A DNA stretch of 44,060 bases from Candidatus Kuenenia stuttgartensis (lineage in GTDB: Bacteria > Planctomycetota > Planctomycetia > Gemmatales > Gemmataceae), in the NCBI GenBank assembly GCA_945897965.1, contig CAMDHK010000008.1, positions 1 through 44,060 of the forward strand, read 5' to 3'. Every line of letters begins with the position of its first letter. Within the stretch, counting starts at the first letter, position 1. The position numbers and the translations under genes were made by a program. Of the stretch, positions 8,676 to 18,818 are shown in pieces. Below the pieces are notes generated by a model. The model made no database searches, was not told the DNA's origin, and worked only from the letters and a program-made list of their open reading frames with translations.

Positions 8676-11600
8676 TTAACCGCAACCAGTAGTTGCACCG
8701 CAAGTATCGCATTTGCAACATGCGCCACTGCGTATCAAAGTAAGCTGGCCACACTCATTACATGGGTCGCCTTCATACCCTTTAAGCCTAGCAACGCGAA
8801 TTCGATCATCGGGCTTGGCAGCAAGGGATACCGAATGCGCTTCTTCGTGAGAGGCCGCAGTATGGTTACCATTGGTTGAGGAATAACGCTGTTCGCTAGA
8901 GCCCTTCATAGGGCGTAGATTTTCCGTACGGGGAATAAAGAAGGCCTTCTGCCTTGCAATAGACTTTTCATCCCTTTCATCAGCTTCTTCATCTGAAAGA
9001 TCAGCTTCATAATCTGGAGTCGCAGGAGTACGATCAATCGCATCCGCCCGAAGGTCTTCAGGTTGGACATGCGCCAAATCATGGCGACCAAGATAAGTGA
9101 TAGCCAATTCCCTAAAGATGTAGTCAATTACAGAAGTCGTCATCTTGATATGGGGATTACCCTGAACTGGGCCATTAGGCTCAAACCGGGTAAACACAAA
9201 AGCATCAACATATTCTTCAAGCGGAACACCATGTTGCAGGCCAAGGGAAACAGCAATTGCAAAGCAATTGGTCATGCTACGAAACGCTGCGCCTTCCTTA
9301 TGCATATCGATGAATATTTCACCGAGGGAATTATCATCGTACTCGCCTGTACGAACATAAATCTTATGATTCCCAATCCTTGCTTTTTGAGTATACCCTG
9401 CCCTGCGATCGGGCAGGCGCCTACGATTCGCAATGTAGCGATAGACGACTTTTTGCGCCAATCGTACGGGGGAATTAGGGTTTTCATCTGCTTTTGCTTC
9501 ATCATCAAAGGAATCAACATTGATGTCTTCTGCATCAGCAACACTATTCAAAGGCTGACTAAGTTTAGAGCCGTCACGATAAAGCGCATTAGCTTTGATC
9601 ATCAGTTTCCAACTCATCATGTAAGCATTCTTAACATCTTCGAAAGTTGCAGAATGTGGCATATTGATGGTTTTGGAGATAGCACCTGAGACAAAAGGCT
9701 GGGCCGCAGCCATCATAAAAATATGTGCTTCAGCTGAAAGAAAGCGTTTGCCATTCTTGCCACAACGATTTGCACAATCAAACACTGCATAGTGTTCTTC
9801 ACGAAGATGAGGAGCACCTTCAATCGTCATGGTTCCACATACAAACTCACTAGCCTCTTGAACTTGCTGCTTGCTAAAGCCCAGCGCATTCAACAAATCA
9901 AAAGTTGGGGCTTCGATTCGTTCCTTAGGAATATTAAGAGTTTTCTCTAAAGCTTCATCCCCAAGGCTCCAGCGATTGAAAGCAAAACCAAGTTCAAATA
10001 CTGAAGGTAGCTGGGTTTCAATTTTTTGGATAAGCTCTGGAGTGAATCCCTTTGCAGCCAAAGATTCAACATTAATGTGAGGGCAGCCTTTAAGAGTCCC
10101 TGCACCTTTGCAATAACGAACGATATCTTCAATTTGAGATTGGTTGTAGCCAAGCCTTTGCAACGAAGGTGGCATCGAAGAGTTGATAATTTTGAAGTAA
10201 CCACCACCTGCCAACTTCTTGAACTTAACCAATGAAAAGTCAGGTTCGACCCCAGTGGTATCACAATCCATTACCAAACCAATGGTTCCAGTTGGCGCAA
10301 TACATGTAACTTGCGCATTACGGAAACCATGTTTCTCGCCAAGAGAAAGCATCAGGTCAGCTTCATTTCTCGCAGCATCGAGAAGATAGCTCGGGCACTT
10401 GGATGGATTAATTTCGACGGGGGTAATGGTAAGGCCTTCGTATTCAGCAGCATTCGTTTTAAAGGCTGCCCTACGGTGATTTCGAATCACACGAAGCATC
10501 GAGTGTTTATTCGCTTCATATCTTGAAAAAGGCCCAACTTCAGATGCAATGCGTGCAGACATTACATAAGCGGCGTTATGCAAAATAGAAGATAAAGCGC
10601 CACACCATGCACGACCTTCAGGGGAATCATAGGGAATGCCCTGAACCATAAGGAGGGTGCCAAGGTTTGCATATCCCAAGCCCAAAGTACGGAAGTCATA
10701 AGACTTTTGTGCTACAGGAATACTGGGGAACTGTGCCATGTATACAGAGATTTCGAGAACCAGTGTCCACAGGTAGCAACCATGCCTATAAGATTCGACA
10801 TCAAACATGCCTGTTGAATTGTCATAAAACTTAATCATATTTAATGACGCAAGATTACAAGCAGTATCATCTAGGAACATATACTCACTGCAAGGATTGG
10901 AAGCATTAATGCGACCATCAGCAGGGCAAGTATGCCATTCATTAATCGTGGTATCAAATTGAACGCCTGGATCTGCGCACATCCAAGCAGCGTTACAGAT
11001 TTGGTCATAAAGATCTGCTGCCTTGAGAGTTTCGCAAGGCTTCGGATCGCGACCAGCTTTTAGAGCTTTTTCTTTTTCCGTGCGGAAATAAAGAGGCCAA
11101 TCACCATTATTGATAACCGCTTGCATGAACTTGTTGTCAATGCGAACTGAATTATTACTATTTTGACCCGATACCGTAGCATAAGCCTTTGAATTCCAAT
11201 CGGTATCATATTCATCAAAGGCAATTTCGGTTGCACCGAGTTTGGCCAATTGAACCGATCGTTCGATGTAATTGGCAGGAATCAAAAACTTAGTTGCATT
11301 TAAAACTGCTTTTCGCAGTGTCTGGTTCTTCTTGACATCAAATCGCTCTGCCATTTTGGGCCAAGCATGGCAGGCCTTGATGATTGCGTTCAATTCTCTC
11401 GATAGCAACTTGGAGCCCACTACTAACGATGCAACTTTTTGCTCTTCGACGACTTTCCAATTGATGAAATCCTGAATATCAGGGTGATCTAGATCCAGCA
11501 CTACCATTTTGGCAGCTCGTCGTGTTGTACCACCGGATTTTATTGCACCAGCGGCACGATCACCAATTCTAAGGAAACTCATCAACCCGCTAGAGCGACC

Positions 11601-12323
11601 GCCACCGGATAAAGGCTCAGCTTCGCCTCGGAGGTTGGAAAAATTGCTACCTGTACCAGAACCATATTTAAAAATTCGGGCTTCACGAACCCAAAGGTCC
11701 ATGATGCCACCCTCATTGACGAGGTCATCTTCGATAGACTGGATAAAGCAGGCATGCGGGGCAGGATGCTCGTAAGCAGAAGTAGAACGAACCATATCCC
11801 CGGAGATGGGGTCTACTCTATAATGGCCTTGTGCAGGACCATCAATGCCATAAGCCCAATGTAAGCCAGTATTAAACCATTGTGGTGAGTTAGGTGCGGC
11901 CATTTGATTGGCAAGCATAAAACAAATTTCGTCATGGAAGCTTTGGGCATCCTGAGGAGTAGAAAAATAACCACCCTTCCAGCCCCAATAAGCCCAGCAA
12001 CCAGCTAATCTTCGAAATACCTGCCTGCTATCTGTTTCGCAAAGGTCGCGGGTATCGCCTTCAGCGGGAATGCTGCGTTGCAAGAATTCTGGAACACCTT
12101 CTTCATGCACCTTTGATGCATTCCGGGGCAGACCAGCCTTGCGAAAATATTTCTGGGCTAGAATATCAGTAGCAACCTGAGACCATTTCTCAGGAACCAT
12201 GACATCCTTCATTTCAAACACGGATTTGCCATCCGGGTTCACGATCTTTGAAGTTCGTGGGACAAATTTGATTGACGCAAAGGGATCCATACCCTCAACG
12301 GTGAAGTTACGATTAATACGCAT
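8676..12323 (-). CDS. nrdJ: Adenosylcobalamin-dependent (class II) ribonucleoside-diphosphate reductase
   Basis: It reduces ribonucleotides to deoxyribonucleotides using a thiyl radical generated by adenosylcobalamin, independent of oxygen. With the start at 12323 it has 1215 residues. The catalytic loop NPCSEYM gives N476, C478 (thiyl) and E480. The redox partners are probably C192 (APHACFIQS) and C489 ([10 protein letters not shown]). The C-terminus carries the expected Cys-rich zinc-ribbon-like tail (CNECG...[14 protein letters not shown]), which ferries reducing equivalents. I prefer the second ATG because AGGA sits about 5 bases upstream; the first ATG (12341) has no ribosome site. No other RNR class appears in the window. 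The gene lies between dcd and the adenosyltransferase gene, so dNTP supply and its cofactor enzyme are clustered. Confidence 0.97.
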
Positions 12324-12420
12324 TAATATCCTATCTTTCATTTCTTACGCAGGGGTCGCCACCATCCATAGTAACACGACTGTTCGACGGGAAGAACCTG
12401 CTACTTAACTAGAACCGAGG

Positions 12421-12455
12421 TGTGTATCCTAATGACGATTCATCAAATGTACACA
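12421..12455. promoter_or_regulatory. Dyad-symmetric element upstream of nrdJ
   Basis: TGTGTA (12421-12426) and TACACA (12450-12455) form the outer arms, and ATGA/TCAT (12432-12435, 12440-12443) the inner arms, of an imperfect palindrome about 100 bases before the nrdJ start. It does not match the NrdR box layout (ACA...TGT outer ends). No B12-box was recognised in this leader, so a cobalamin riboswitch is not supported. Confidence 0.3.
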
Positions 12456-12526
12456 ATAAAATTTAATAAAAAAACCGATTGTTCCGAAGCCATTATTATT
12501 TAAGAGTTTAAGAACTAAACAAATAA

Positions 12527-13090
12527 TTATTGCGGGGGTTGTGACCCAAGAACAAAAGGAAGTGTCAGACCTTTCTGGTCTTGGTATTTTCCTTTTTTAT
12601 CCGCATAACTTGTTTTGCACATTGCGCTACCTTTAAAAAACAAAATCTGGGCAATGCCTTCATTTGCATATATTTTAGCAGGTAGTGGAGTAGTATTACT
12701 AATTTCAATGGTAACCCTGCCACGCCATTCGGGCTCTAGCGGTGTAACATTCACAATGATACCACAGCGGGCGTAGGTACTTTTCCCAACACAAACAGCA
12801 ATAATATCTCTTGGAATTTCAAGGTACTCAACTGTTTCTGCTAGGGCAAAACTATTGGGCGGTATAAGGCAATAATCGGCTTCGATATCTACAAAAGATG
12901 CTGGGTCGAAATTCTTCGGGTCAACCACTGTGCAACGAGCGTTGGTAAAAACTTTGAAATGCCTATCAACTCGTACATCGTAACCATAACTAGTAACGCC
13001 ATAAGAAATCAATCCCTTGCGGCCTGAACATTCTTCAAAGGGAACGATCTTAATATTTTCCTTGATCATCCAGTCAGGTAAAACAGCCAT
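12527..13090 (-). CDS. dcd: dCTP deaminase
   Basis: It deaminates dCTP to dUTP, feeding dTTP synthesis. The 187-residue protein has the dUTPase-like beta fold with SYGYDVRVD, the [13 protein letters not shown] strand, [10 protein letters not shown] and the catalytic [14 protein letters not shown] segment. The length fits a monofunctional Dcd rather than the shorter dUTPases. I place the start at the ATG at 13090 ([12 protein letters not shown]) because GAGGAA lies about 6 bases upstream. A longer frame beginning with TTG at 13132 adds 14 residues with no family support. It is the first gene of the leftward block, 203 bp upstream of nrdJ, and is functionally linked through pyrimidine dNTP balance. 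Confidence 0.96.
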
Positions 13091-13474
13091 GTTTTGTTCC
13101 TCGCTTCCAAATAAAAGCTTCATTAAACACAAGAATCATCATCCGGATGAAAAACAAGTGTAAGCCACATACATATTTATCATAGACTTAAAGATGTTTA
13201 TCCTTTCCAAAGTAGAAATCAACTAAGAAGTTTTGGAATTTATAAAGAGGTGTTTGAACCACTCGTCTTTAAGCCCGAATATTTATTTACAGAATTTAAA
13301 TTGTTGGAAATAATCTCTTGGCAAAAATAGATTTTGTGTGCATGATGACAAAAGAATTTCAAAAAAAGAGTTTCAGTATTGGGACCCGCCTGTTAAAAAT
13401 ACAGTTAGAAAGTACAGACTATTGTTTAAACCTGCTAATTGTTAAACCTGTTTTTAAAGTATGTAAGGATGATC
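13091..13474. other. Divergent intergenic region, dcd / thioredoxin-NHL gene
   Basis: This AT-rich region of 384 bases separates two divergent genes and must hold both promoters. No RNA gene or good open frame is visible. The only clear structure is a near-direct repeat: ATTGTTTAAACCTG (13421-13434) and ATTGTTAAACCTG (13438-13450), 17 bp apart, just upstream of the rightward gene. I could not settle on a convincing -35/-10 pair. Confidence 0.5.
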
Positions 13475-15160
13475 ATGAATTCTAAACCTATTCCAGCTGA
13501 AACATCTACCCCTGACTTATTAACTAAAAAGTCTTCTCCCAAATGGTTTACCTATTTGGTGCCGGTTGCAACCTTGTTAGGCTTGGCACTGCTTGGAAGC
13601 TACTTTTATATTCCAGGAAACACTCAAGCATTAGCTCAGGTTCCTGCTGAAAAATCAACCGCTCAGGATAAAGAAAAAGCGAAAGCTGAAAAAGTTTCTG
13701 CCCCTGATTTTGAAGGTGGGGTTGCTTGGCTTAACACTGCAAAACCCATCAGCATCAAAGATCTAAAAGGCAAAATCGTTCTTTTGGACTTCTGGACCCT
13801 TTGTTGCATTAACTGTATCCACACCCTCCCCGACCTAGCAAAGCTTGAAAAGAAATACGCCAACGAACTTGTCGTAATCGGCGTTCACTCTGCAAAGTTT
13901 GAAAACGAAAAAGAAACAGAAAGCATCCGCAAGGCAATTGCACGCTACGAAATCAAACATCCCGTAGTTAATGATGCCAACATGAAAATCTGGCGAACTT
14001 ATGGTGTTAACTCTTGGCCAACATTAGTCCTCTTGGATTCCGAAGGTAATTTTGTTGCAAAAGGTTCGGGCGAAGGCTTGCACGATGCGGTCGACTTGGC
14101 AATTGCAAAGCTAGTAAAGTCAGGCAGAGAAAATAAAACACTTAATGAAAAACCAATCGACTTCGGTCAATCTGTGGAAAAAGCCACTTCACCGCTTTAC
14201 TTCCCTGGAAAAGTTTTGGCAGATGCAGAATCTAAACGTATTTTCATCGCTGACAGCACCAATCACAGAGTCATCATCACTGATCTTGAGGGTAAGGCAC
14301 TTGCAACAATCGGCCAAGGTGGTAAACCTGGATTTAAAAATGGATCCTACACCGAAGCCATGTTTGATGATCCTCAGGGAATGGCACTGGTGGGCGATGA
14401 TCTATATCTTGCCGATAGAAAGAATCACTTAGTTAGAAAAATAGATCTGAAAAAACAAACTGTTTCCACTGCTGCTGGAACAGGCAAACAAGGCCATGAC
14501 CGTGATACTGGTGGTATCGCTACTTTGGTTGGCCTTAACAGCCCATGGGATTTACTCCGTAAAGGCGATACTCTTTTCATCGCTTTGGCTGGGCATCATC
14601 AAATCTGGACACTCGATATTAAATTTAAAAAGCTTCTCCCTTACGCAGGCAATGGCAGAGAGACACTTAAAGATAACCCACTAGCTTCTTCGAGTTTTGC
14701 TCAGCCCAGCGGGTTAACCACCGATGGCACAAACCTCTTTGTTGCAGATAGTGAGATTAGTGCCATTCGTTCGCTTCCCTTGGATGGTAAAGGCAATGTT
14801 AAAACCATTGTTGGGCTTGGCCTTTTTGATTTCGGTGACATCGACGGATTTGGCGATGAAGTACGAATCCAGCATGCTTTAGGTGTCGCTTGGCATCAGG
14901 GCCTGATTTATATTGCTGACACCTACAATAGCAAAATCAAAACCCTTGATCCTAAAACCCGAGAATGCAAAAACTATCTTTCCAGCACCAAAACCGGTTG
15001 GATGGGTGGCCCCATGTTCAACGAACCCGCAGGCATTAATATTTCGGGCGGAATGATTTATATCGCTGATACAAACGCCCACCGCATTCAAGTGGTGGAT
15101 TTAAAAACAAAAGCTGTCAGCACACTTAAAATTACCGGTGTCGATATCGTACCAAGGTAA
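13475..15160 (+). CDS. Membrane-anchored thioredoxin-like protein with C-terminal NHL beta-propeller (NHLRC2-like)
   Basis: The protein has 561 residues. One N-terminal transmembrane anchor (about residues 24-46, WFTYLVPVATLLGLALLGSY) is followed by a linker and a thioredoxin-like domain (about 75-205). The redox motif CCINC places the CxxC at C111-C114, in the FWTLCCINC context seen in eukaryotic and bacterial NHLRC2 proteins. The rest is a propeller of NHL-type repeats (FIADSTNHRV, YLADRKNHLVRKID, YIADTYNSKI, YIADTNAHRIQVVD). It is probably an extracytoplasmic thiol-disulfide protein whose propeller binds a partner. The start at 13475 has AAGGA 5 bases upstream; the first in-frame ATG (13439) has none. 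The next gene, 60 bp on, encodes a DsbD-like electron donor. Confidence 0.9.
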   Translation: MNSKPIPAETSTPDLLTKKSSPKWFTYLVPVATLLGLALLGSYFYIPGNTQALAQVPAEKSTAQDKEKAKAEKVSAPDFEGGVAWLNTAKPISIKDLKGKIVLLDFWTLCCINCIHTLPDLAKLEKKYANELVVIGVHSAKFENEKETESIRKAIARYEIKHPVVNDANMKIWRTYGVNSWPTLVLLDSEGNFVAKGSGEGLHDAVDLAIAKLVKSGRENKTLNEKPIDFGQSVEKATSPLYFPGKVLADAESKRIFIADSTNHRVIITDLEGKALATIGQGGKPGFKNGSYTEAMFDDPQGMALVGDDLYLADRKNHLVRKIDLKKQTVSTAAGTGKQGHDRDTGGIATLVGLNSPWDLLRKGDTLFIALAGHHQIWTLDIKFKKLLPYAGNGRETLKDNPLASSSFAQPSGLTTDGTNLFVADSEISAIRSLPLDGKGNVKTIVGLGLFDFGDIDGFGDEVRIQHALGVAWHQGLIYIADTYNSKIKTLDPKTRECKNYLSSTKTGWMGGPMFNEPAGINISGGMIYIADTNAHRIQVVDLKTKAVSTLKITGVDIVPR

Positions 15161-15220
15161 TCAAGCCTAACTTTGAAACCTGATAGTTATACAACCATCA
15201 TCCAATGAAAATGATTACAT

Positions 15221-17299
15221 ATGATGCAATTGAGATCTTTATTTGTAATTGCAGTGCTTATTCTGACGTCTGCTTTTTATGTGGTTGGACAAACCCCTGA
15301 AAAAATTTCGCCGCCCGCTACTGCATCACGAATCGATTTCTCCGCAACCTTAGGCGCAGTAGACCCTTTTTCTGATTCCAATATCGAAGAGCCAAAAGAA
15401 CTTGCCGTTCGCAGAGGCGAAGTTCTTGTCCTGCGTATCCAAGGAACCCCAAAAACGGGATTTCATACCTACCCCATAACCCAACGAACCGAAAACCAAG
15501 ACGAGAACGGTCTCTCAAAACTTACCTTCAAAAAAAACCCAGTATTCTCCCCTATATATCCTCTAAAAGAATCCGAACCCGAATGGAAAGAAGAGGGGGT
15601 GCTTGGCTACTTCCTTGAATTTGAAAAGCCATTCACTTGGACCCAGGAAATCTACATTCAACCCGATGCCACGGTTGGCAAAACCGAACTTAACTTTTCA
15701 ATCAAGTTGCAGGTTTGCGATTCAAAATGTGTTTGGGGGGAACACGTATTTAGCATCCCTGTATCTGTATCCAAATCAAACCCACTCGAAACTTCGGAAG
15801 AACTTAAACAAAGATTAGCCATCAAAGAAGATGCGCCTAAGATTGTTGCCGATCCTAAAAGCAGCAATCCCAAAAGCAATAAGCAGCAAACTAATACAGA
15901 TAACTCCAAGACTGGAACCGAAGGCTTATTGGCATTTGCACTACAGGGAATGTTTTGGGGAGCTATCTCCCTCGTAACGCCTTGCGTTTTCCCCATGATT
16001 CCAATCACGGTAAGTTACTTCCTAAAGCAATCAGAAAAAACCCATCACAGGCCGGTTGCAATGGCAGTAGTTTATAGCCTCACTATTGTTATTGTTCTTA
16101 CCATTGCCGCAGTGGCCCTACTCTCATTCTTTCGCTTACTTAGCGTGCACCCTGCCATGAACTTTGGCTTGGGATGCCTATTTGTTTTCTTTTCTTTAAG
16201 CCTGCTTGGTATGTATGAAATTGAGCTCCCAAGTGGGTTGGCACATTTCACCAGTTCCAAACAAGGCCAAGGCGGGATGGTTGGAACCATCTTCATGGCA
16301 CTTACTTTCACGATCGTCAGCTTTGCCTGTGTTGCTCCATTCCTTGGTGGTTTTGGTGGCACAGCTTCTGGATCAAATCTCACCTTCCTCCACCGCCTGC
16401 TTGGTGGGTTCGCATTCTCATTAACTTTTGCATCGCCATTTTTCCTGCTTGCATTGTTTCCCGGAATGTTGAAGAAGCTTCCCAAGAGTGGTAATTGGCT
16501 TAACAGCGTCAAGGTAGTGATGGGCTTTCTGGAATTGGCAGCTGCAATCAAGTTTTTCAGAGCAGGAGAACTTGTATTATTTCCCGAACCATTAATATTC
16601 ACTTACGATTTCTCGATGGCAATTACGGTTATTATTGCTCTTTGCTGCGGGCTGTATCTTTTGGGCTTTTTGCAACTCCCACACGATATGCCCTCCGAAC
16701 ACACGAGCGTTCCTGGAGTTGTACTAGGCTGCCTTTTCTTGGCATTTGGTTTATATCTGACACCTGCGTTATTAAAGTTAAAGGAAGATGGGTCGCGACT
16801 AAGGCCATCGGGAATGATTTTCGCCTGGGTTGATTCCTTCCTACTTCCAGAAGAAAACGATGATCTACCCTTCATCGGAGATTTAAATCGTGGTCTGGAA
16901 GAAGCAAAGAAACAAAACAAGATGGTTTTTATCGATTTCACCGGGGTAACCTGCACCAACTGCAAAATCAATGAGGCCAATGTTTTCCCGATGAAAGATG
17001 TTCGTGAGCTTCTCAAAAAGTTTGTGCTAGTGCAACTTTACACCGATCGTGTACCGGACAAACTTTACTCCCCCGAAGAACGATCCGCATTTCAAGGCAG
17101 TGCCACCAAACAACGCGCTGACGCGAATAAAAATCTCGACTTCCAAAAGTTAAAGTTCAACACAGAACAACTTCCTCTTTATGTAGTGGTCAAACCGGAT
17201 GCGAATAGCTTTGTTGAAGTCGCAAGGTATGATGAGGGAAAGATCAATGATGTTTCAGCATTTATAAAGTTTCTAAGGTCTGGGCTAAACGGCAAATAA
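15221..17299 (+). CDS. DsbD-like thiol:disulfide interchange protein
   Basis: The protein has 692 residues and three modules. A signal peptide (1-24) leads to an N-terminal DsbD-alpha-like domain with a C166-x3-C170 pair (VCDSKCVWG). The membrane module has about eight hydrophobic helices between 236 and 520, with the two conserved Cys C255 ([10 protein letters not shown]) and C370 ([11 protein letters not shown]) that carry electrons across the membrane. The C-terminal thioredoxin domain has C578-T-N-C581. Such proteins transfer reducing power from cytoplasmic thioredoxin to periplasmic substrates. The redoxin encoded just upstream is a plausible client. No strong ribosome site precedes the two adjacent ATGs (15221, 15224), so the exact start is uncertain. 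Confidence 0.93.
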
Positions 17300-17336: not shown

Positions 17337-18818
17337 ATGTCTTCCGCATCTAAATCAAAAATCATCAAAGCTCCCAAGGTTTCGAATCAGAAATTATTTA
17401 TCAATGGTAAATGGGTCAACAGTATATCTGGCAAAACATTTGCAACTTTAAACCCCTCAACTGGGCAGGAAATTTGCCAAGTGGCTGAGGCCGACTCTGC
17501 AGATGTCGATCTTGCAGTAAAAGCTGCAAGAAAAGCATTTGAATCAGGGCCTTGGAAAAAGATGAGCGCAGCAGAGCGAGGCCGTAGAATCAACAAACTC
17601 GCAGATCTTATGGAACAAAATCTTCCAGAGTTGGCTGCACTCGAATCACTCGACAATGGCAAACCTCTTCGTGATTCCCTTAATGCGGATCTCCCTCTTA
17701 GCATCAAGGCTTACCGCTATTACGCTGGTTGGTGCGATAAAACCCATGGCAAAACTATTCCAGTAGAAGGCGAATATTTCTGCTACACCAAGCATGAACC
17801 CGTTGGTGTTGTAGGCCAGATCATTCCTTGGAATTTCCCATTGCTAATGACCGCTTGGAAATGGGCCCCTGCTCTGGCAACCGGTTGCACGATTGTTTTA
17901 AAACCCGCAGAGCAAACCCCTCTTACAGCTCTGAGGATGGCAGCACTTGCCCAAGAAGCAGATATTCCAGATGGTGTTATCAATGTTGTGCCAGGATTTG
18001 GGCCCACTGCTGGCGCTGCAATCACATCGCACATGGATATTGATAAAGTCGCCTTCACAGGCGAAGGCAGCACGGGCCAACTAGTTATGCAGGCTGCGGC
18101 CAAGAGTAATTTAAAACGCGTCAGCCTTGAGTTGGGTGGCAAAAGCCCAAATGTGGTTTTTGCTGATGCTGATTTGGATGCTGCGGTAGAAGGAGCCTAT
18201 TTTGGTTTGTTTTTTAATCAAGGACAATGCTGTTGCGCAGGTAGCAGGCTTTTCGTTGAAGAAAAGATCCATGATGCTTTTGTGGAAAAACTAGTTGCTA
18301 GGGCAAAAAAACAACGCATAGGTGATCCCTTTGATATGACAACCACCCAGGGGCCCCAAATATCCCAAGAACAATGCGATCGCATTATGGGATATATCGA
18401 TATCGGAATTTCCGAAGGTGCCAACCTGTTAAGTGGTGGCAAAAGAGTTGGAAATAAAGGGTATTTCATCCAGCCAACCATTTTCGATGGTGTCAAAGAC
18501 AACATGCGAATTGCAAAAGAAGAAATTTTTGGCCCAGTGATGAACATTCTCAAGTTTAAAGATGTAGACGAAGTGGTTCAGCGGGGTAATAAAACCTTCT
18601 ACGGGCTTGCTGCTGCAATTTGGACCAAAGATATTACCAAGGCCCACCGCCTTGCGAATAGCTTAAGAGCTGGCACGGTTTGGGTCAATTGCTACGATGT
18701 TTTTGATGCTGCTGCTCCCTTTGGCGGTTTCAAAATGAGTGGCATTGGCAGAGAACTAGGGGAATACGCTTTAAGCCTCTATACCGAAGTAAAAACTGTC
18801 TACATAAACCTAGGCTAA
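17337..18818 (+). CDS. NAD(P)+-dependent aldehyde dehydrogenase
   Basis: The 493-residue protein is a standard ALDH-superfamily enzyme close in pattern to ALDH1/ALDH2. It has the PWNFPLLM cofactor region (164-171), the general base E265 in LELGGKSP, and the nucleophile C299 in [11 protein letters not shown], where the middle of three Cys is catalytic in ALDH2. GTVWVNCYD and [13 protein letters not shown] near the C-terminus are also family hallmarks. It oxidises aldehydes to acids; the exact substrate is not clear. It starts 37 bp after the DsbD-like gene with AAGGAGA upstream, so it may be co-transcribed with the thiol-redox pair. No signal peptide is seen, hence cytoplasmic. Confidence 0.96.

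Follow-up and report, generated by a model that had tools for sequence, protein, structure and literature searches.

An NHLRC2/SOQ1-like redoxin gene paired with a DsbD-like gene in most Gemmatales: a probable extracytoplasmic reducing pair

The 44,060-nucleotide stretch analysed here (the window; contig CAMDHK010000008.1, positions 1 to 44,060) carries two neighbouring plus-strand genes, one for a redoxin of the NHLRC2/SOQ1 family (protein 1, 13475-15160) and one for a DsbD-like transmembrane thiol conduit (protein 2, P0002, 15221-17299). The parts of both proteins are conserved, the two genes are paired in most genomes of the order to which we infer that the window belongs, the Gemmatales, and some relatives of the redoxin have TGA in place of the codon for one of its active-site cysteines, C111. 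The two proteins probably form an extracytoplasmic reducing pair, in which the DsbD-like protein would charge the redoxin through its alpha domain. NHLRC2 is essential in mammals and is mutated in FINCA disease, while SOQ1 governs one form of photoprotection, and the chemistry of the CCINC site common to both is unsettled in the portions of the literature available. The bacterial pair points to a definite electron donor and a definite nucleophile for that chemistry, and provides a bacterium in which both can be tested.

Pairing of the two genes within the order

We scanned 102 genomes of the order at thresholds of E <=1e-60 for the redoxin and E <=1e-15 for DsbD. The redoxin was found in 96, DsbD in 95 and both in 93. 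The two were linked in 77 of these 93 genomes, on one strand and with DsbD always downstream, the matched stretches being 26-2286 bp apart. The two matches lay on separate contigs in 15 of the remaining 16 genomes; in the other (G270) they share a contig, at a distance of about 2.2 Mb. For one of the genomes with matches on separate contigs (G252), a DsbD-profile match adjoins the redoxin.

We inspected 38 linked loci, three from a single genus and each of the others from a genus of its own. The redoxin and DsbD genes were directly adjacent in 25 of them, and those of L089 and L111 share 4 bp. In the other 13 they are separated by the gene of a protein some 190 residues long, which begins like a signal sequence and has a CX4C cysteine pair. 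The profile built from 12 of these 13 proteins (that of L092 is counted in the total and stands outside the profile) aligns with the N-terminal part of DsbDs with a probability of 100, and one of them scored 23.3 bits (7e-5) against Pfam DsbD_N, for which the cut-off is 25. Judged from their sequences, the intercalated proteins are secreted, DsbD-alpha-like candidates for extra carriers. A separate thioredoxin_7 ORF also stands between the redoxin and DsbD in L092 and L095, the DsbD ORF of L086 opens with an additional thioredoxin domain, and one more ORF, which looks unrelated, is present in L099 and in L104.

The redoxin

The redoxin gene extends from ATG 13475 to a stop codon ending at 15160 and encodes 561 amino acids: an N-terminal anchor, a TlpA-like thioredoxin domain and an NHL propeller. 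The mechanically derived ORF begins 12 codons upstream, at TTG 13439, but ATG 13475 is the likelier start. A hydrophobic stretch identified by hydropathy at residues 28-46 (13556-13612), which may be an anchor or a long signal sequence, precedes the thioredoxin-like domain (residues ~75-205, 13697-14089; Pfam Thioredoxin_8 at 99-192, 1.8e-18, and AhpC-TSA at 75-192), which Pfam and PDB searches show to be TlpA/ResA/DipZ-like. The NHL beta-propeller follows at residues ~230-556 (14162-15142; Pfam NHL, 3.7e-22, and alignment to PDB 7djj and 6gc1). The hydrophobic stretch is present in 35 of 39 homologues of the order and in 33 of 40 redoxins from elsewhere and, taken together with the DsbD partner, makes a placement of the redoxin outside the cytoplasm likely. 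There are four cysteines, three of them (C110, C111 and C114) in the motif FWTLCCINC and the fourth at 498. The CCINC site spans 13802-13816, with the C111 codon at 13805-13807; in a 19-row alignment every row has C111 and C114, and nearly every row C110.

Comparison with the lumenal part of SOQ1 (7djj; phmmer E 8.6e-119, residues 75-556) and with human NHLRC2 (6gc1; E 1.6e-118, residues 72-553) showed a full-length thioredoxin-like domain followed by the NHL propeller over residues 72-556, and FWTLCCINC conforms to the CC(I/V)NC active site of the family. These matches, with those to Pfam and the hydropathy, confirm the initial annotation of this stretch, which had described an anchored NHLRC2-like redoxin with FWTLCCINC and an NHL propeller. 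The alignment with 7djj stops at residue 556 of 561, and we do not term the redoxin a strict SOQ1 orthologue because the C-terminal domain of SOQ1 is missing.

Two groups of relatives deserve mention in their own right. A homologue from another planctomycete lineage (L119, 7631-9631) aligns through the SOQ1 C-terminal domain (residues 42-653), and that domain is therefore not restricted to plants. NHLRC2-like proteins also occur on Nitrosotalea and Nitrosotenuis contigs (archaea; L198, L224 and L229). The search of the L198 genome for DsbD_TM returned no match, so that another donor or another location would be needed there.

The DsbD-like protein

P0002 (692 amino acids) combines a DsbD_TM domain containing two cysteines, an alpha fold with a cysteine pair and a gamma thioredoxin domain with a CxxC site. 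Its structure was modelled with AlphaFold2 from 33 homologues of the order (mean pLDDT 80.6, pTM 0.60). The alpha-like domain, with C166/C170, occupies residues 33-185 (15317-15775); in the model it matches DsbD alpha with Z 9.1-10.0 and rmsd 2.4-3.0 Å over 103-108 residues, and the ScsB N-terminal domain with Z 9.6 and rmsd 2.8 Å over 124 residues. The membrane domain, with C255 and C370, covers residues ~232-518 (15914-16774), where the model has helices and Pfam DsbD_TM matches 244-445 (1.7e-21). The C-terminal, DsbD-gamma-like thioredoxin domain (residues 547-692, 16859-17296; Thioredoxin_7, 4.8e-11) bears C578-T-N-C581 and matches DsbD gamma 2fwe (Z 13.0, rmsd 2.2 Å, 114 residues) and Bacteroides 3f9u (Z 17.1, rmsd 3.1 Å). 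Foldseek places GH123 glycosidases, with low TM-scores, alongside the entries for DsbD alpha, and we therefore base the assignment of the alpha domain on the second structural comparison, on the order of the domains and on the cysteine pair. VIA-align matches were mostly to the C-domain, and that none was to a membrane-domain structure carries no weight against the membrane domain of P0002.

The cysteines of P0002 are at 166, 170, 255, 319, 370, 475, 476, 504, 578 and 581. The three DsbD-type pairs that the initial annotation had pointed out (C166/C170, C255/C370 and C578/C581) are all there, and the six residues are invariant in 34 of 34 aligned homologues of the order, an alignment that excludes rows with TGA at C578. 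With the NCBIfam model PRK00293 (protein-disulfide reductase DsbD), whose cut-off is 330 bits, P0002 reaches 104.4 bits, and it is therefore DsbD-like, outside the E. coli-type subfamily. A TsoB-type rhodanese/DsbD selenoprotein was also considered and rejected (NF045694, 129.8 bits against a cut-off of 805), and a pattern scan for viral relatives of P0002 found none. Many DsbD-like relatives have one in-frame TGA, both in our phylum sample and in order genomes G235-G238, G260 and G295-G297; in the three that we looked at (L094, L116 and L117), it stands in place of the codon for the first CTNC cysteine.

TGA at the codon of C111

Position 111 in 177 aligned redoxin loci is Cys in 165 (121 TGC and 44 TGT), TGA in 10 and another residue in two (Ser in L150 and Asp in L151). 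L150 and L151 are distant relatives (32-34 percent) which keep the thioredoxin-propeller layout and lack the cysteines of the redox site. Six of the ten TGA redoxins are extra copies within the Gemmatales that are not linked to DsbD (L239-L244), and four come from other planctomycete orders (L126, L134, L146 and L148); the motif is C-TGA-INC, except for G-TGA-VNC in L134. The sole other in-frame stop among the 177 loci is a TGA in L189 at position 107, a Trp position. The cysteines of this copy are intact, and we read the stop as a sequencing error or a genuine interruption and not as selenocysteine.

SelB scored above its cut-off in 25 of the 28 genomes tested, the window's own included, versus 2 of 14 controls. 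Nine of the ten genomes with a TGA redoxin are among those above the cut-off, and in the tenth (G131) the match is partial and lies where a contig ends. A FastTree tree of 163 rows, which omits 14 near-alike cyanobacterial rows and L108, L111 and L167, has four changes between Cys and TGA, all four of them forced; a 74-row tree, a hand-chosen subset of the 163, also has four, of which three are forced by starred branches. In the 74-row tree, the two copies from G291, one with TGA (L243) and one with Cys and linked to DsbD (L113), are sisters. An Rfam search of the ten TGA loci at gathering thresholds found no selenocysteine insertion element. The hairpin 3′ of the codon is slightly stronger in TGA than in Cys copies (mean z -0.43 versus 0.14; 10 TGA against 165 Cys copies, L150 and L151 omitted; 60 mononucleotide shuffles each; one-sided p 0.02), a difference which lends weak support to selenocysteine insertion. 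The TGA at this codon is probably read as selenocysteine. C110 is replaced by Gly in 7 of the best 80 cross-phylum rows kept, and also in L132, L134, L135 and L153. Because TGA falls exactly at C111 while C110 is sometimes Gly, C111 is the likely nucleophile and C114 the likely resolving cysteine.

Proposed electron flow and its alternatives

We propose that cytoplasmic thioredoxin would deliver electrons to the membrane cysteines of P0002, C255/C370, from which they would pass to the CTNC domain (C578/C581) and then to the alpha domain (C166/C170). The alpha domain would in turn reduce the C111-C114 disulfide of the membrane-tethered redoxin, which, with C111 as its nucleophile, would reduce disulfides or other oxidised cysteines of extracytoplasmic proteins, the client probably being picked by the propeller. 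The first steps have their precedent in the E. coli DsbD pathway, where the alpha domain is the one that hands the electrons over; the DsbD complexes 1vrs, 1jzd and 1z5y appear among the structure matches of the P0002 model. The last step, from the alpha domain to the redoxin, is suggested by the pairing of the genes and by the alpha-like proteins intercalated between them. We also infer the direction of flow, the direct contact between the two proteins, their location and the role of the redoxin as a reductase. The order-wide linkage fits the prediction of the initial annotation that DsbD keeps the redoxin reduced; the CTNC domain, which had been put forward there as the docking partner, gives way to the alpha domain with C166/C170, as expected from the E. 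coli precedent.

A number of observations weigh against this scheme. The pairing of the genes indicates co-function and stops short of electron transfer. At least three members of the order (G270, G271 and G272) keep the redoxin and DsbD apart, with no DsbD within several kilobases around the redoxin in G271 and G272, and the additional copies of the redoxin, among them the order's six with TGA, do not lie beside DsbD. At the level of the DsbD protein, Pfam DsbD_N was searched against residues 1-227 of P0002 and no family matched. Outside the order, among 199 planctomycete genomes sampled, 44 had the redoxin, one of them the window's own; a P0002-type DsbD (E <=1e-25) was present in 19 of the 43 others and in 109 of 198 overall, and is slightly under-represented alongside the redoxin (Fisher p 0.12). 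The two genes were neighbours in none of these 19 genomes, and the nearest pairs on one contig were about 44 and 48 kb apart. Among 40 redoxin loci of other planctomycete orders, whose flanks of about 7-8 kb (less at contig ends) were searched by tblastn and with two profiles, one of full-length DsbD and one of its membrane domain, none had a DsbD membrane domain. No DsbD_TM match was found anywhere in 5 of 50 cross-phylum redoxin genomes, the other 45 having such proteins, compared with 10 of 14 controls. On the experimental side, human NHLRC2 failed to reduce insulin (PMC6107167, available in part), and dithiothreitol (DTT) left the lipocalin change in soq1 plants unreversed, which counts against a redox role there (PMC8614926, likewise available in part).

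The same two profiles were run on cross-phylum loci, the best 80 kept of a longer list from named genomes. A membrane-domain match occurred in five of these 80 (L191, L194, L197, L209 and L227), all of which are assigned to the Gemmatales. Across the 40 and the 80 loci together, the one other match was a partial one to the DsbD C-domain in L147 (1.6e-5), and no DsbD membrane domain was found in the ~2 kb available downstream of L237 (Fimbriiglobus). The neighbourhood survey that had been suggested in the initial annotation therefore turned out positive in the Gemmatales and negative in the 40 loci of other planctomycete orders, and the redoxin-DsbD operon looks like a trait of one order. Since the flanks were short and only the best 80 loci were kept, a rarer linkage may exist elsewhere.

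The genes might share an operon while their products do separate jobs, DsbD supporting thiol reduction outside the cytoplasm in general (for cytochrome c assembly and isomerases), with a redoxin that is only co-regulated and draws on another electron source. Such an arrangement would agree with the occurrence of the redoxin without linked DsbD outside the order, with the members of the order that keep the genes apart and with the unlinked extra copies. However, it sits poorly with a pairing that is kept in fixed order in most genomes while other neighbours change, and with alpha-like modules between the genes in a third of the loci inspected, and we judge it to be rather unlikely. Somewhat less likely again, the redoxin could be an isomerase or an oxidising partner, DsbC-like or DsbA-like, which DsbD only resets or opposes. 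E. coli DsbD also feeds DsbC (the complex 1jzd is among the structure matches), and the fusion of the thioredoxin domain to a large propeller provides a possible client binder. Yet the domain is TlpA/ResA/DipZ-like, of families that are mainly reductive, and a nucleophilic selenocysteine is more usual in reductases and peroxidases. That the thioredoxin-like domain has no redox chemistry at all, CCINC being a structural or binding site, is very improbable: the insulin result, the doubts of its authors about thiol-disulfide exchange (PMC6107167, in the portion available) and the absence of the cysteines from the distant L150 and L151 are outweighed by the presence of Cys or TGA at position 111 in 175 of 177 loci and by the ten relatives in which TGA falls precisely on C111, nine of whose genomes have SelB.

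Relation to known systems

SUPPRESSOR OF QUENCHING 1 (SOQ1) of Arabidopsis has the same cysteine motif in a thioredoxin-like domain followed by an NHL propeller. Like the redoxin, it is membrane-anchored, with its thioredoxin-propeller part outside the stroma (PMC6107167). It differs in having a haloacid dehalogenase (HAD) domain ahead of the membrane segment and a C-terminal domain, whereas the redoxin ends after the propeller, and in the portions of the literature consulted no DsbD-type gene is fused or linked to it in plants. Human NHLRC2 shares the CCINC thioredoxin-like domain and the six-bladed propeller but has an extra C-terminal domain, and no N-terminal membrane anchor is described for it in the part of PMC6107167 available. 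By manual count, a human residue altered in FINCA disease, Asp148, shares a column with Asp167 of the redoxin, and this column is invariant in 19 rows. P0002 resembles DsbD of E. coli and Neisseria in its alpha-membrane-gamma order with a cysteine pair in each domain, and differs from them in that its alpha pair is CX3C. The nearest thioredoxin-only solved relative of the redoxin domain is DipZ of Mycobacterium tuberculosis (PDB 2hyx and 5cyy; E ~4e-24), which has no NHL propeller. In DipZ the thioredoxin domain is fused to a membrane domain of the CcdA type, so that one chain unites both functions where the Gemmatales have two proteins. Its active site is an SCINC motif (PMC6107167).

The available part of that study agrees with the statement in the initial annotation that bacterial NHLRC2-like proteins have no established function. 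Its authors suggest that human NHLRC2 does not carry out thiol-disulfide exchange and, from 7 bacterial genomes, that the NHLRC2-like gene lies outside any operon (PMC6107167). The active-site TGA codons and the gene pairing across the order argue against both suggestions for the bacterial family, without refuting them for the human protein. For SOQ1, the active-site cysteines are required for suppression of qH by a mechanism that is unknown, and CCDA and HCF164 bring electrons into the lumen (PMC8614926, in the portion available). A wider reading, which we put forward tentatively and regard as somewhat doubtful, is that the whole NHLRC2/SOQ1 family consists of thiol or selenol reductases with the second Cys of CCINC as the nucleophile, fed in the Gemmatales by DsbD from a dedicated operon that also contributes additional alpha-type carriers, and by a conduit of the DsbD or CcdA type in chloroplast and other extracytoplasmic members. 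If true, it would overturn the published suggestion that NHLRC2 performs no thiol exchange.

In a library with few subscription papers, we found no paper combining DsbD, NHL repeat and operon, and for selenoprotein, NHL repeat and thioredoxin we found two, both listed as being on corals. The words NHL, SOQ1 and propeller do not occur in the main text of a 2026 selenoproteome review (PMC13188914). Two of its entries, a thiol:disulfide interchange protein (PF13098, UxxC) and one called redoxin family protein (PF08534, UxxC), may cover selenocysteine-containing NHLRC2-like proteins, although copies of this type are apparently unnamed in the portion available.

Neighbouring genes in the window

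The gap between the redoxin and DsbD genes is 60 bp, and a terminator-like site was looked for on its plus strand without one being found. An aldehyde dehydrogenase gene (17337-18818, 493 amino acids; Pfam Aldedh, 1.4e-186) follows DsbD after 37 bp. Both distances are as first annotated; the aldehyde dehydrogenase, which had been noted there as the next gene, is an incidental neighbour and was rejected as a third member of the system, as it has a strong match in 3 of the 38 linked loci, plus a 24 percent match in L118. A conserved gene upstream of the pair was likewise rejected, the upstream genes varying between loci. In the window, the minus strand upstream (8676-13132) carries, in divergent orientation, the genes of a putative ribonucleotide reductase of 1221 amino acids and of a dCTP deaminase (TIGR02274). 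Relatives of these two adjoin the redoxin-DsbD pair in a few loci only.

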